Translations under genes and position numbers: made by a program | In this document: piece by piece, positions 4,111-10,715 of the stretch | How the letters are laid out: each line of letters begins with the position of its first letter | Numbering within the stretch: position 1 is the first letter of the stretch | NCBI RefSeq assembly: GCF_023074835.1 | Contig: NZ_JALLGW010000001.1 | Coordinates: 1,054,001-1,118,000 of the forward strand | Direction: 5' to 3' | DNA length: 64,000 nucleotides | Origin: Halomarina salina | Lineage (GTDB): Archaea > Halobacteriota > Halobacteria > Halobacteriales > Haloarculaceae | Notes under the pieces: generated by a model | What the model saw: the letters and a program-made list of their open reading frames with translations, nothing else | What the model was told of the DNA's origin: nothing | The model's database searches: none

Positions 4111-4977
4111 GTGCGATACTATCGAACGAGGCGCGACGGGGCGGACCGACTCGTCGCGAGCGACGGCCGGACGGCGTACGACCTCACCGCGGCCCGCGAC
4201 GGCCTCGGCTCCTTCCGCGACCTGGCCCGCGTCGCCGCGGTCAACGGCGAGAGCGTCGACGACGTGACCGCACGGGTGACCGACGACGCGCCGGTGCTCG
4301 ACGCCGACGCGGTGGTCGAGCGCGCCGCGATGCCCGCCGTCCCGGACGAGGTGTGGGCGGCCGGCGTCACCTACGAGGTCAGCAGCGACGCCCGCGAGGA
4401 GGAGAGCGGCCGCAGCGAGCTGTACCAGACCGTCTTCGAGAACGAGCGCCCCGAACTGTTCTTCAAGGCCACCGCCTCGCGGACCGTCGGCCCCGGCGAG
4501 GCCGTCGGCGTCCGCGCCGACTCCGACTGGGACGTCCCCGAACCCGAACTGGCAGTCGTCCTCTCGCGGGGGGACATCGTCGGCTACACCGTCGGCAACG
4601 ACGTGTCGAGCCGCGACATCGAGGGCGACAGCCCGCTCTACCTCCCGCAGGCGAAGGTGTACGACCGCTGCTGTGCCATCGGTCCCGCCATCGCCTCGCC
4701 CGACACGGTCGGGGACCCGCTGGACCTCGACCTGTCGATGACCATCGAGCGCGACGGCGAGACCGAGTTCGACGGCGAGACGTCCACCTCGAAGATGGTC
4801 CGCACGCCGGAGGAACTCGTCTCCTACCTGAACCGCCACAACACCGTCCCGGAACTCGCGGTCCTGCTGACGGGCACCTCGCTCGTCCCGGACGAGTTCA
4901 CGCTCCGGGAGGGCGACCACGTCGCTATCGACCTCGAGAACGTCGGGACGCTCGAGAACCCGGTCGTCTCGGTCTGA
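4111..4977 (+). CDS. Fumarylacetoacetate hydrolase-family protein (XacE-like dehydratase or diketo-acid hydrolase)
   Basis: A 288-residue FAH-fold protein. The acidic metal ligands fall in WDVPEPELAVVLSRG, and the family signature GNDVSSRDIE follows. The start is GTG, giving VRYYRT; upstream codons in frame are antisense to the aldehyde dehydrogenase. Haloarchaeal homologues act as 2-keto-3-deoxy-pentonate dehydratase (XacE in Haloferax) or as the 2,4-diketo-3-deoxy-rhamnonate hydrolase of the diketo-hydrolase pathway. Both fit the neighbours, and the presence of an SDR nearby makes the second worth testing. Confidence is high for the fold and moderate for the pathway. Confidence 0.85.
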   Translation: MRYYRTRRDGADRLVASDGRTAYDLTAARDGLGSFRDLARVAAVNGESVDDVTARVTDDAPVLDADAVVERAAMPAVPDEVWAAGVTYEVSSDAREEESGRSELYQTVFENERPELFFKATASRTVGPGEAVGVRADSDWDVPEPELAVVLSRGDIVGYTVGNDVSSRDIEGDSPLYLPQAKVYDRCCAIGPAIASPDTVGDPLDLDLSMTIERDGETEFDGETSTSKMVRTPEELVSYLNRHNTVPELAVLLTGTSLVPDEFTLREGDHVAIDLENVGTLENPVVSV

Positions 4978-6548: not shown

Positions 6549-7634
6549 ATGCTGTTGGTCCTCTGTGTCGACCTCGACGACGACCTCGGGCGGAAGACCG
6601 GGTTCAAGACCCCGGTCGTCGGCCGGGACGCCGTCGAGGAGGCCGCGGTCGCGCTCGCCACCGCCGACCCCGAGGACTCCGACGTCAACGTGCTGTTCGA
6701 GGGCGTCCACCTCTACGACCAGTTCGACGAGGAGGAGCGCGAGGTGGCCGTCGTCACGGGGACGAACGGGAGCGACGTCGCCGCCAACCGGAAGGTGGGC
6801 GAGGAGGTCGACACCGTGCTCGCCCGCCTCACGACCGGCGAGGACGTGCAGGCCATCGTCGTCACCGACGGCGCACAGGACGAGTCGGTCATCCCCGTCA
6901 TCCGCTCGCGGGTGCCCATCGACGGCGTGCGCCGGGTCGTCGTCCGGCAGGCCCAGGACCTCGAATCGATGTACTACACCATCAAGCAGGTACTCGACGA
7001 CCCGGAGACCCGGGGGACCATCCTCATCCCGATGGGTATCCTCCTGCTCGTCTACCCGCTGTTCGTCGTCGCCGAGTTCCTCGAACTGCCGGGCGTGACG
7101 TTCGGCGTCGTCTCGGGGCTGCTGGGCCTGTACCTGCTGTTCCGGGGCCTGGGCGTCGAGCGCGCAATCGACAGCCTCGTCGACCGCGCGCGCTCGGGAC
7201 TGTACGCCGGTCGCGTGACGCTGGTGACGTACGTCGTCGCAACCGCACTGCTCGTCATCGGCGGCGCGGGCGGCGTCGAGGAACTGGAGGCGATGCGGTC
7301 GGCGAGCGGCGACGTCGGCATCCTCCGGTCGTCCGTCGCCCTGGTCAACGGGGCGGTGGTCTGGTTCGCCGCGGCGGGCGTCGTGGCCAGCCTCGGGCGC
7401 ATCACCGACGAGTACCTCCGCGAGCGGTTCCGGTGGCGCTACTGCAACGCCCCGTTCTACGTGCTCGCCATCGCGGCCGTCCTGGAGGGCGTCAGCGCCT
7501 ACTTCCTCGAGTTCGCGGGCGCGTCGTACCTCGCGGGCGCGCTCACCGTCGGGACGCTGCTGGGCGTCGTCAGCACGCTCGTCTTCGCCATCGCGGAGTC
7601 CCGGTTCTCCCGCGTGCGGGAGACGACGGTCTGA
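6549..7634 (+). CDS. DUF373 family membrane protein
   Basis: A 361-residue archaeal DUF373 protein. The first 150 or so residues are soluble: MLLVLCVDLDDDLGRKTG at the start and VTGTNGSDVAANRKVGEEVD further on, patterns typical of the family. The second half contains about six hydrophobic segments, so the protein is anchored in the cytoplasmic membrane with a cytosolic N-terminal domain. No biochemical role is established for the family. It stands alone, with a leaderless-type start a few bases after an AT-richer patch. Confidence 0.85.
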   Translation: MLLVLCVDLDDDLGRKTGFKTPVVGRDAVEEAAVALATADPEDSDVNVLFEGVHLYDQFDEEEREVAVVTGTNGSDVAANRKVGEEVDTVLARLTTGEDVQAIVVTDGAQDESVIPVIRSRVPIDGVRRVVVRQAQDLESMYYTIKQVLDDPETRGTILIPMGILLLVYPLFVVAEFLELPGVTFGVVSGLLGLYLLFRGLGVERAIDSLVDRARSGLYAGRVTLVTYVVATALLVIGGAGGVEELEAMRSASGDVGILRSSVALVNGAVVWFAAAGVVASLGRITDEYLRERFRWRYCNAPFYVLAIAAVLEGVSAYFLEFAGASYLAGALTVGTLLGVVSTLVFAIAESRFSRVRETTV

Positions 7635-7804
7635 GACGAGACCGGTAGAGCAGCGACTCCCCGACCCACCGACGACCGGTGGGCGGTGGCCTCCACCGAA
7701 CCTGACCACAGTCGTGCGCCGTTCACAGGCCACCGCGCGACGGAACAGCGTCGCGCGGCACTCTCCCACCAACGCCTTTGCCGTCGCTGGTCGAACGCGG
7801 TGGT

Positions 7805-8149
7805 ATGCCACTCGACACGAGCGACGAGGCCTGGCTGAACGCCGCCGAGGCGTCCACGCACCGCGAGGCGGTCCACCAGTACCTCCGGGACCACGCGGGG
7901 GTCGCGTACCACGACCGGGAACTCGCCGACGCCGTGATGGGAACCGCGTGGGCGGCGCGCGGCGACGGCCGCGTGACCGACTCCGACGCGATTCACGACC
8001 TCGTCTACACCCAGTTCCTCCACGACCAGCTCGACGAACTCGTGCGCCAGGGGGACGTCGAGGCGCGTAACGTGCCGACCGCGCACGTCACGGGGGAACC
8101 CGTTCCCGACGACTGGGACCACGTCACCTACTACAGCGTCAGCCGGTAG
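7805..8149 (+). CDS. Small haloarchaeal protein, possible winged-helix fold
   Basis: A 114-residue soluble acidic protein. I do not recognise a named family. Residues 18-45 (HREAVHQYLRDH... ELADAVMG) read like a helix-turn-helix or winged-helix core, and the C-terminus ends in a short beta-like segment (WDHVTYYSVSR). The start is the ATG at the tenth codon of a slightly longer frame, because the preceding codons look like untranslated leader. It lies between the DUF373 gene and ilvE and converges on ilvE. Confidence 0.6.
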   Translation: MPLDTSDEAWLNAAEASTHREAVHQYLRDHAGVAYHDRELADAVMGTAWAARGDGRVTDSDAIHDLVYTQFLHDQLDELVRQGDVEARNVPTAHVTGEPVPDDWDHVTYYSVSR

Positions 8150-8197
8150 GGTCCGTGGGTCGCGTCGCGACCGTCGAAAAGAGCCGCTACAGTCGTC

Positions 8198-9136
8198 TTA
8201 CTGCTCGTTAACGTACGTGAACCACTCGTCGTGGTCGTCGGTCCGGCGCTCGACGAGGTCGAAGAACGCCTTCTGGAGCTCTTCGGTGACGGGGCCGCGA
8301 GAGCCGTTGCCGATCTCGTTGTCGTCGACGCTGCGGATGGGCGTCACCTCGGCCGCGGTGCCGGTGAAGAACAGTTCGTCGGCGGTGTACAGTTCGCCCC
8401 GCGAGATGGTGGCCTCGTCGTGGACCTCGTACCCGCGCTCCTCGGCGAGCGTGATGGCCGTCTTCCGGGTGATGCCGTCGAGGATGGACTCGGCGAGACC
8501 GGGCGTGTATATCTCGCCGTCCTTGACGAGGAAGATGTTCTCGCCGGGACCCTCCGCGACGTTGCCCTCCTTGTTCAGGACGATAGCTTCGACGTAGCCG
8601 TTGCCGCGGGCCTCCTCGCCCGCGAGCATCGAGTTGAGGTACGGGCCGGTCGCCTTCGCGTTCGTCGGAATCTGGCTGGAGGCGTGTTTCCGCCACGAGG
8701 AGACCATCACGTCGACGCCGTTCTCGATGGCGTCCTCGCCGAGGTACGCGCCCCACGGCCAGCAGGCGATCATCGTCCGCGTCGGGCAGTCGCCCGGCGA
8801 GACGCCCAGAGAGTTGTAGCCGTAGAACGCAAGCGGGCGGATGTAACAGGATTCGAGGTCCTGCCGGCGGATGAGTTCGAGCGTCGCCTCGGTCAGTTCC
8901 TCGTGGTCGTGGTCGATCTCCATGTCGTACGGCTTCGCGGAGTCGAACAGCCGGTCGAGGTGCTCCTCCCAGCGGAAGATGGCCGGGCCGCGTTCGGTGT
9001 CGTAACAGCGCACGCCCTCGAAGACGCCGGTCCCGTAGTGGAGTCCGTGGGTGAGGACGTGCACCTGCGCGTCCTCCCAGTCGACGAACTCGCCATCCAT
9101 CCAGATGGTGTCGACGTCCATGTCGGCAAATGCCAT
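8198..9136 (-). CDS. ilvE: Branched-chain amino acid aminotransferase
   Basis: A 312-residue class IV PLP-dependent aminotransferase. Hallmarks are LTHGLHYGTGVFEG near residue 30-40, the PLP-binding lysine K161 in TNAKATGPYLNS, EGPGENIF, and FFTGTAAEVTPI. These match IlvE, which transfers the amino group between glutamate and the 2-oxo acids of leucine, isoleucine and valine in the cytosol. Length is normal. The gene is monocistronic in this window; the nikR gene behind it on the same strand starts well upstream and has its own regulatory region. Confidence 0.93.
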   Translation of the reverse strand: MAFADMDVDTIWMDGEFVDWEDAQVHVLTHGLHYGTGVFEGVRCYDTERGPAIFRWEEHLDRLFDSAKPYDMEIDHDHEELTEATLELIRRQDLESCYIRPLAFYGYNSLGVSPGDCPTRTMIACWPWGAYLGEDAIENGVDVMVSSWRKHASSQIPTNAKATGPYLNSMLAGEEARGNGYVEAIVLNKEGNVAEGPGENIFLVKDGEIYTPGLAESILDGITRKTAITLAEERGYEVHDEATISRGELYTADELFFTGTAAEVTPIRSVDDNEIGNGSRGPVTEELQKAFFDLVERRTDDHDEWFTYVNEQ

Positions 9137-9223: not shown

Positions 9224-9625
9224 TTACTCTCGCCCACCACCGTCAGCGAGCGAGAGGGTCTTCACTCGCCCCACCGCGTCGAAGTCGCGTAACTCGTAGA
9301 CGAGTTCCCGGACGCGTTCGGCGTCGCCGCGGCAGAACACCGTCTCCAGACACCACTCGCCCTGGTGGGCGTGGCTGGTCGACTGGATGACGTCCTGGTA
9401 GTCGTGCTGGACATCGTGCAACGCGCCGATAATCTCGTGGTGGGCGTAGTCGAACGCCAGCACCGCCGTCACCTCGCCCGTGAGCGATTCGAGCCGAGCG
9501 TGGGCTTCGGTGTACTCCTTGACCGCTTCGCGGACGGCCCGCGAGCGCGAGTCGATACCCTCGGCTTCCCACACCTCGTCGAACGCCGCGAGGTCCTCCT
9601 CCGGGAGGTTGACCGTCGTTCGCAT
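9224..9625 (-). CDS. nikR: NikR-type nickel-responsive ribbon-helix-helix regulator
   Basis: A 133-residue protein with an N-terminal ribbon-helix-helix (RTTVNLPEEDLAAFDEV) and a C-terminal ACT-like metal-binding domain. The four nickel ligands known from NikR are all present: H74 (VQHDY), H85 and H87 (SHAHQGEWC) and C92. NikR tetramers bind nickel with square-planar geometry and then bind a long inverted repeat. The start was set at the ATG that begins the RHH strand; 27 upstream in-frame codons carry no family features and overlap the operator region. It is divergent from a nickel/cobalt transporter gene, and a candidate operator lies between the two starts. Confidence 0.88.
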   Translation of the reverse strand: MRTTVNLPEEDLAAFDEVWEAEGIDSRSRAVREAVKEYTEAHARLESLTGEVTAVLAFDYAHHEIIGALHDVQHDYQDVIQSTSHAHQGEWCLETVFCRGDAERVRELVYELRDFDAVGRVKTLSLADGGGRE

Positions 9626-9697
9626 GCTCGGGGGTGGACGCCACCGGGGAAAGTCGTGCGGGTTCGTCGAGGCGTTCGTCACCCCGCAATCGGCCCC

Positions 9698-9728
9698 GTT
9701 ATGCACGCACCCCTGAAGTGGTCATAAC
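9698..9728. promoter_or_regulatory. Candidate NikR operator, GTTATG-N19-CATAAC
   Basis: A perfect inverted repeat, GTTATG and CATAAC separated by 19 bases, in the short divergent region between nikR and the nickel/cobalt transporter. The best known NikR site (E. coli) is GTATGA-N16-TCATAC, so half-site sequence and wide spacing are similar though not identical. The right half overlaps where a TATA box for the transporter would be expected, which would suit repression by nickel-loaded NikR. Confidence 0.6.
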
Positions 9729-9761
9729 AACCGACAGGACCCCGCACCGCCCAGTTCCGGT

Positions 9762-10715
9762 ATGGTCGATCTCCCGCTCTCGTATCTCGGCGTCGTTCTC
9801 ATCGGGCTCGTCCACGGGGCCGAACCGGGCCACGGCTGGCCCGTCGCCGCCTCCTACGCGCTGAACCGCTCGCGAACGTGGACCGCTGGCCTCGTCGCGG
9901 GAGTCGTCATCGGCGTCGGCCACCTCGTCTCCTCTATCGTCGTCGTCGCGGTGTTCGTCCTCGCCGCCGACGCGTTCGACCTGACCAGTCTCGGCTGGAT
10001 TCGCTACGCGGCGGGTACGCTGCTGATTCTGCTCGGCGTGCGCGAACTCCGCGGCGGCGGCCACCACCACGGCGCAGGTCACGACGCAGACCACGACCAC
10101 GACCACGACGGCGATGGACACCACGACCACGACGTCGACGACGGCCACGAGCATCACGGAGACGCTCACGGCCACGGAGACGCTCACGGCCACGGAGACG
10201 CTCACGCCCACCACGGAGACGCCGACGACGAGACGACGTACCTCACGAGCGTCACGGCCGCCCCTCCCGAGAGAGACCACGCGCACTCGCACGGCGACGG
10301 TCGCCGAGACGACGACACTGGCCCCGGGGTGTTGGGGCGCATCCGGCAGTCCCTCCCGTTCGTCGGCGACCACAGCCACGACTCGGGAGGTGGCCACTCC
10401 CACGACCACGACCTCTCGGCCGACGACCCGCAGGGGCTGTGGGGAATCGCGGGCGCGGCGTTCCTGCTCGGGTTCGCTCACGAGGAGGAGATCCAGATCC
10501 TCGGGTTCTGCACCGGTGCGAGCGGGCAGTGCGTCCAGTTGATGCTCGTCTACGCGACGGCCGTCGTCGTGGCGCTCGTCGCGCTGACGCTGCTGCTCGT
10601 GGCCGGGTTCGAACGCTACGAGGAGCGGATGGCGGGGTACGCCGAGTACTTCCACCTGGTCTCGGGCGGCGTCCTCGTCCTCATGGGACTCGGGTTCGTC
10701 GCGGGCGTGCTGTAG
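9762..10715 (+). CDS. NicO/RcnA-like nickel-cobalt transporter with His-rich loop
   Basis: A 317-residue integral membrane protein. The first helices carry LVHGAEPGHGWPVAAS, the HxxxPGH-type metal motif of the NicO/RcnA family. After about three helices comes a hydrophilic loop of roughly 110 residues crowded with His and Asp (GHEHHGDAHGHGDAHGHG and similar), then three more helices including a second metal motif, GFAHEEEIQILGFC. The His-rich loop is a likely Ni2+ or Co2+ buffer on one side of the membrane. Direction (import or export) is not given by sequence: RcnA exports, other NicO members import. Control by the divergent NikR is inferred. Confidence 0.85.
   Translation: MVDLPLSYLGVVLIGLVHGAEPGHGWPVAASYALNRSRTWTAGLVAGVVIGVGHLVSSIVVVAVFVLAADAFDLTSLGWIRYAAGTLLILLGVRELRGGGHHHGAGHDADHDHDHDGDGHHDHDVDDGHEHHGDAHGHGDAHGHGDAHAHHGDADDETTYLTSVTAAPPERDHAHSHGDGRRDDDTGPGVLGRIRQSLPFVGDHSHDSGGGHSHDHDLSADDPQGLWGIAGAAFLLGFAHEEEIQILGFCTGASGQCVQLMLVYATAVVVALVALTLLLVAGFERYEERMAGYAEYFHLVSGGVLVLMGLGFVAGVL
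10158..10211 (+). repeat. Three 18-bp tandem repeats in the His-rich loop
   Basis: Three head-to-tail 18-bp copies inside the transporter gene, the third with a single mismatch, encode the hexapeptide GDAHGH (last copy GDAHAH). A partial fourth copy follows. Because the unit is a multiple of three, copy-number changes would lengthen or shorten the metal-binding loop without breaking the frame. Confidence 0.9.

Follow-up and report, generated by a model that had tools for sequence, protein, structure and literature searches.

In a haloarchaeal genome of 4.46 Mb, a gene for a NikR-like regulator lies back to back with a gene for a histidine-rich membrane transporter (termed TRA here), and an inverted repeat separates the two. 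This arrangement raises the question of whether the repeat is an operator for NikR, which genes such an operator would serve, and whether the transporters under its control would carry metal into the cell or out of it. The locus was analyzed as part of a stretch of 64,000 nucleotides (G000:C1:1054001-1118000; the window), and its features are collected in Table 1. The closest named relative found was Halomarina rubra, whose NikR is 95% identical. Next to nikR are an aminotransferase-like gene (8198-9136) and a gene for a 361-aa membrane protein (6549-7634), and the same two neighbors accompany nikR in Halocatena marina (L003:5555-6490 and 7181-8266). As these neighbors are common to both organisms, the nikR-TRA pair of the window is considered to lie in a chromosomal context and not on an island.

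Table 1. Features of the nikR-TRA locus (coordinates of the window)
Feature	Coordinates	Strand	Description
nikR-like gene	9224..9625	-	133 aa; ribbon-helix-helix and NikR C-terminal metal domain
nikR upstream stretch	9626..9697	-	72 nt from operator to ATG
Candidate operator, 31 bp	9698..9728	-	exact inverted repeat; kept in relatives
Stretch from operator to transporter start	9729..9761	+	bases 6-9 are ACAG; TATA-like YTAW in relatives
TRA, His-rich RcnA/NicO-like membrane transporter	9762..10715	+	317 aa; HGAEPGHGW, GVGHLVSS, LGFAHEEEI
18-bp tandem repeat, 3.2 copies	10155..10211	+	codes for GDAHGH units in the His-rich loop

The regulator is a NikR of a divergent branch

The regulator contains both domains of NikR, with Pfam scores of 68 bits for NikR_C (cut-off 22) and 30 bits for RHH_1 (cut-off 20.5). 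The four nickel ligands seen in the initial annotation (H74, H85, H87 and C92) are invariant in all 33 aligned homologs. The corresponding residues of E. coli NikR are numbered H76, H87, H89 and C95. An AlphaFold model (pLDDT 85) was compared by Foldseek, which ranked NikR structures first with Pyrococcus horikoshii NikR (2bj3) as the best hit, and the same protein was the best match in an alignment with solved structures. The translation start used by the homologs is the ATG, and a GTG located 27 codons upstream is possible. None of the NCBIfam NikR models was matched above its cut-off, the best being PRK01002 with 93.5 bits against 111. As the protein falls below every one of these cut-offs, it is assigned by its sequence to a divergent haloarchaeal branch of NikR. 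Its ligand loop is one residue shorter than usual, as all 33 aligned proteins have H87-x4-C92 whereas the solved NikRs in the alignment have H-x5-C; the H-x-H-x5-C spacing, which does not occur here, was not treated as defining for NikR.

The transporter is closest to RcnA

The initial annotation had described the transporter as a NicO protein with an HxxxPGH motif and a His-rich loop carrying an expandable 18-bp repeat. The motif (H18-xxx-P-G-H24) and the loop are present; the latter spans residues 97-222 with 28 histidines, and the copies of its 18-bp unit match at 97%. Among relatives of TRA, the motifs HGxxPxHGW, GxGHLxSS and LGFxHxE are invariant. The assignment to NicO did not hold for the window protein, which gave no match to the Pfam NicO family (PF03824) at E<=1, and ten of 15 relatives matched NicO/NiCoT weakly (best E 5.5e-6). 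RcnA (PRK10019) was matched by 14 of the 15 relatives at E<=0.1 (best 2.9e-15), although these matches lie far below the family cut-off as far as they are shown, and the window protein scored 29.7 bits against a cut-off of 195. Alignment of E. coli RcnA with the TRA family profile by hhalign resulted in a probability of 97% and an E value of 2.6e-11 over approximately 91 N-terminal columns. By these profile comparisons, TRA is distant from NicO/NiCoT and has RcnA as its nearest family. The AlphaFold model of TRA (pLDDT 60) yielded no Foldseek match in the PDB, and the sole match in a PDB sequence search with the window protein was that of its His loop to a zinc transporter.

The inverted repeat is conserved across haloarchaea

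The repeat GTTATG-N19-CATAAC is perfect and stands between nikR and the divergent transporter gene, as originally noticed. It is a single site in the genome when spacers of 15-25 are allowed, and a control with the reversed pattern gave none. In shuffled versions of the window, 0.12 matches with up to two mismatches are expected, and 11 of 100 shuffles contained at least one, so that the repeat alone is only modestly beyond chance. It is accepted as real because relatives have it in the corresponding position. Among 37 nikR loci from named genomes, 22 contained TRA and 15 did not. In a matrix search, 19 of the 22 TRA loci showed a site of 31 bp that lies 61-67 bp upstream of nikR, and the 15 loci without TRA showed none (L016, L019-L021, L023-L025, L029, L031 and L033-L037 are examples of nikR homologs with neither TRA nor an upstream site). 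Together with the window site (at -103) this amounts to 20 operator sites, 16 of them distinct. The three loci that lack the site are L011, in which nikR and TRA are approximately 1.7 kb apart, L032 (Salinarchaeum laminariae), in which the operator is eroded and the transporter truncated, and L038, with a distant partial match only. The L032 transporter gene (4588-4919) is cut to 96 aa and retains only the start and the C-terminal part. At L047, which may be compared with L011, the operator has stayed by TRA and not by nikR, even though 1.6-1.7 kb separate the genes. A second NikR-like gene with 25-27% identity was observed at L023, L024 and L031, all loci without TRA.

A sequence-only model was built from the 16 distinct sites and used to search 242 genomes of the class (E<=0.1). 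Matches were obtained in at least 115 of these genomes, a lower bound owing to the strict filters of the search, and the window site was found in its own genome with an E value of 2.1e-4. Examination of 110 distinct loci, with matches down to an E value of about 0.01 and with L149 removed as a duplicate of L040, placed 104 sites no more than 250 bp away from TRA, nikR or both (86 near both genes, 17 near TRA only, one near nikR only). The six sites near neither are taken up below. The 82 distinct nikR-TRA sites define a half-site, KTATKAC, with a spacer of 15 between the 7-mers, and its bases T3, A4, A7 and C8 are conserved in 163, 163, 157 and 152 of the 164 half-sites, respectively. Inverted GTATGAC-like half-sites about two turns apart are the arrangement that is characteristic of NikR operators, and the repeat is therefore, as far as sequence comparison can tell, a conserved NikR operator. 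A literature search, whose reach mostly excluded subscription papers, found no haloarchaeal NikR operator.

The E. coli K-12 nikA operator, read from its record as GTATGACGAATACTTAAAATCGTCATAC, has the arms GTATGACG-N12-CGTCATAC and is one base tighter than the haloarchaeal box. Comparison with this operator and with the conserved half-site indicates that what looked like a wide repeat is a NikR box of the ordinary kind, seen in a shifted register. The initial proposal of a NikR-type inverted repeat thus stands, while the conserved core is KTATKAC-N15-GTMATAM and not GTTATG-N19-CATAAC.

The window copy of the operator

The window site is a weak representative of this box, with a score of 22.3 compared to a median of 31.5 and a minimum of 10.6 for the set. 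Read on the nikR strand, the transporter-proximal half-site TTATGAC (9727-9721) agrees with the consensus. The nikR-proximal half (9699-9705) has TG instead of the GT that is conserved at core positions 24-25 in 92% and 97% of the 82 sites. On the transporter strand, bases 6-9 past the operator read TTAT, CTAT or CTAA in 64 of 82 relatives, a TATA-like element approximately 25-30 nt before the TRA start codon, as in a leaderless archaeal promoter; this element is not seen at the usual place in the window. The distance between operator and nikR start is also longer in the window than the 33-37 nt present in 65 of 82 relatives. The weak box, the missing TATA-like element and the long nikR leader together suggest that the window copy may be drifting or decaying. 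Among congeners, G159 (reference genome, locus L129) has a standard operator, G238 has one that scores 21.4, and G156, which lacks TRA, has no operator (best score 3.3).

An MFS transporter gene as predicted second target

The six operator sites near neither TRA nor nikR led to a second target, as four precede a gene for a transporter of the major facilitator superfamily (MFS) and the remaining two belong to a cluster of nikR and MFS. The second-best match of the operator model in the genome of the window (E 0.39, C1:1479352) is situated upstream of an MFS gene at a distance of approximately 70 nt. Three sites in other genomes precede relatives of this gene with 65-70% identity. An independent search detected the MFS family in 68 of the 242 genomes, and 30 loci were scored with a matrix trained on nikR-TRA sites only. 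In 29 of the 30 the best site was located 55-70 nt upstream of the MFS gene; locus L176 had none. Measured against resampled upstream DNA, 22 of the 30 sites exceeded the 99% null level and 17 the 99.9% level. In controls from the same loci, 24 of 30 sites scored above every control stretch, and in five loci a higher score came from a control stretch located downstream of the gene start, probably the neighboring nikR's own site. At least 13 genomes have nikR and MFS as neighbors, with gaps of 67-172 bp.

The MFS protein was identified by Pfam MFS_1 (PF07690; 79.3 bits, cut-off 33.4). Its closest NCBIfam models, Tet(40), TetA(P) and HP1165, are of the efflux type and were all matched far below their cut-offs, and a PDB sequence search with the MFS alignment gave no match. 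Because the same site precedes the MFS gene in this genome too, the NikR regulon of the genome is predicted to comprise two transporters, TRA and MFS, which is new here. Beside the MFS gene with the NikR-type site (G000:C1:1479352-1480662, locus L149), the opposite strand encodes an ArsO/MSMEG_0569-like flavoprotein and a heavy-metal P-type ATPase, the latter represented by its C-terminal part. In two loci of one genus (L066:1499-1537 and L090:2499-2537), an operator was observed between genes for an M28 peptidase and a cupin, followed by nikR and MFS, and the peptidase and cupin genes are possible further targets.

Resistance genes, islands and plasmids near TRA

A heavy-metal P-type ATPase gene was present within the fetched 10 kb at 14 of the 22 TRA loci and at none of the 15 nikR loci without TRA; MerA was found at nine and a CDF transporter at two of the 22. 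A single mobile island, in different versions, accounts for nine of the 14 ATPase loci, which leaves about five independent contexts. This metal island consists of a P-type ATPase, an ArsR-like regulator, the nikR-TRA pair and a mercuric reductase (ATPase, regulator and MerA were identified by NCBIfam) and occurs in Haloarchaeobius, two Halorussus and Halorhabdus. Its copies at L006, L007, L013 (10.4 kb each) and L009 (7.9 kb) are 99.5-99.6% identical over 7.9-10.4 kb, an identity that points to a very recent exchange among genera. Among the operator loci for which only short flanks were taken (104 with TRA), an ATPase was contained in eight, MerA in five and CDF in four.

TRA was also recorded on plasmids (11 records, from RefSeq plasmid tables that are incomplete). 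On six of the 11, genes for a P-type ATPase, CDF or ars functions lie within 8 kb of TRA. Putative uptake genes are close to TRA on two others, namely a metal ABC set on one and a ZIP transporter on one. Three of the 11 have no ATPase, CDF, ars, ABC or ZIP gene near TRA, and two have no recognized metal gene at all. TRA is annotated as a hypothetical protein on all 11 plasmids, and a CopG-family or ribbon-helix-helix protein is annotated nearby on ten.

Co-occurrence with nickel enzymes

The distribution of the genes was compared over the 242 haloarchaeal genomes by tests that ignore phylogeny. A strong nikR was detected in 153 genomes, TRA in 137 and both in 128, which corresponds to TRA in 128 of 153 genomes with nikR (0.84) versus nine of 89 without (0.10). 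Strong nikR is missing from nine of the 137 TRA genomes and from eight of 46 genomes with a strong MFS hit. Urease is encoded in 68 genomes, and neither nikR (41 of 68 urease genomes versus 112 of 174 others, P 0.56) nor the operator (32 of 68 versus 83 of 174) follows it. The MFS family is rarer in urease genomes (two of 68 versus 44 of 174), which may be due to phylogeny. LarC (PF01969) was found in 197 of the 242 genomes, including that of the window, and its presence was not associated with that of nikR (P 0.30). Both LarC and urease are missing from 19 of the 153 genomes with nikR.

In the genome of the window, genes for urease and [NiFe]-hydrogenase are absent, which rules out both enzymes as the purpose of the switch there. 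The single cbiM lacks an operator, as the best score in its locus was -0.8. The suggestion that the same repeat might precede urease or cbiMQO was thus not borne out. What is retained of the nickel regulon first proposed is a small metal regulon with a conserved NikR-type operator, whose second target is an MFS transporter.

Direction of control and alternative readings

The observations can be assembled into a model of the switch. Between the divergent nikR and TRA promoters, a NikR tetramer would bind a NikR box of the E. coli type whose half-sites are spaced wider by one base, and the same NikR would act on a second box before the MFS gene elsewhere in the genome. Such binding is predicted from the conserved sequence of the box. 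Nickel (or cobalt) would be the signal, and TRA and MFS would carry the metal out of the cell in a resistance function. Metal-loaded NikR would raise the transcription of TRA and MFS and limit its own, by analogy with Pyrococcus furiosus CopR and copA. As the box of relatives lies directly against the TATA-like element that precedes TRA, NikR would have to affect the recruitment of basal factors. Taken as a whole, a haloarchaeal NikR switch with two exporters is regarded as the best explanation and as a reasonably probable one.

Export is favored over import because TRA is related to RcnA, the nearest MFS models are of the efflux type, resistance genes accompany TRA on islands and plasmids, and no link to nickel enzymes was found. 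The textbook role of NikR, the low RcnA score of the TRA protein of the window and the putative uptake genes on two plasmids speak for import. Control of an exporter by NikR would be sensible only with activation by the metal-loaded form, or with release of the DNA in the presence of metal. The geometry of the box cannot decide the direction, as Thermococcus CopR is reported to act in the opposite way to its P. furiosus counterpart. The most specific form of the model is put forward tentatively. In it, a NikR with a ligand loop one residue shorter than that of all solved NikRs would activate, in a metal-dependent manner, two exporters, one RcnA-like and one of the MFS, in place of shutting off nickel import, and this nickel-resistance switch would have spread on plasmids and islands.

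The strongest alternative is that nickel-loaded NikR represses TRA as a nickel importer and MFS as a second one, supplying nickel to an enzyme other than urease such as the nickel-pincer enzyme made by LarBCE. This reading follows the known logic of E. coli, in which uptake is repressed at high nickel according to PMC7055735. It agrees with the weak NicO matches in TRA relatives, with the wide occurrence of LarC and with a box that overlaps the promoter region, since contact with the TRA promoter suits a repressor as well. RcnA as the nearest family, the resistance genes around TRA and the independence of nikR from both urease and larC argue against it, and it is viewed as a serious possibility that nevertheless falls short of being probable. 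Sensing of cobalt, or of more than one metal, instead of nickel appears rather unlikely; the shortened ligand loop and the annotation of E. coli RcnA as a Ni/Co exporter would fit this idea, whereas the invariance of all four nickel ligands does not. Finally, AT-rich arms inside a divergent promoter of a GC-rich genome could be two back-to-back TATA boxes and no operator, a notion that is highly improbable in view of the fixed spacing and conserved inner bases of 82 distinct sites, the separate TATA-like element outside the repeat on the TRA side, the 104 of 110 matches at nikR or TRA and the site before the non-divergent MFS gene; spacing, inner bases and MFS sites likewise rule out chance.

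With a defined operator and two candidate targets, haloarchaea gain a predicted nickel regulon, and if export proves true, NikR, known as a repressor of uptake, would run a resistance system.

Comparison with known systems

The E. coli system of NikR and nikABCDE has the same domains, ligands, fold and half-site, GTATGAC(G). Since this half-site is shared by E. coli and haloarchaea, DNA recognition by NikR appears to be old. The haloarchaeal system differs in the distance between the 7-mers (N15 versus N14), in the shorter ligand loop and in its targets, which are secondary transporters and not an ABC importer. Delta-proteobacterial NikR boxes, GTGTTAC-N13/14-GTAACAC, control nikMNQO importers according to PMC545781; they are inverted repeats of similar length, with a half-site about one base off KTATKAC and a shorter spacing.

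The nickel/cobalt exporter RcnA of E. coli (b2106) shares with TRA the HGxEPGH motif, the His-rich loop and the profile match of the N-terminal half, and an expanded RcnA His loop is described for cable bacteria in PMC11247825. TRA differs from RcnA in scoring under the NCBIfam cut-off, in having LGFAHEEEI as third motif and in being paired with NikR instead of RcnR.

For the proposed direction of control, the closest parallel is CopR-copA, in which a metal regulator and an exporter are divergent and one palindrome lies between the promoters beside the BRE. According to PMC7830388, P. furiosus CopR activates copA, as shown in vitro, and represses its own gene, and this source gives the opposite report for Thermococcus CopR. 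The regulator family and the metal differ from those considered here, where activation is only suggested by analogy. The MFS target may be likened to NreB, which is named in PMC11247825 as an MFS nickel exporter; the two belong to the same superfamily and have a probable role in metal transport.
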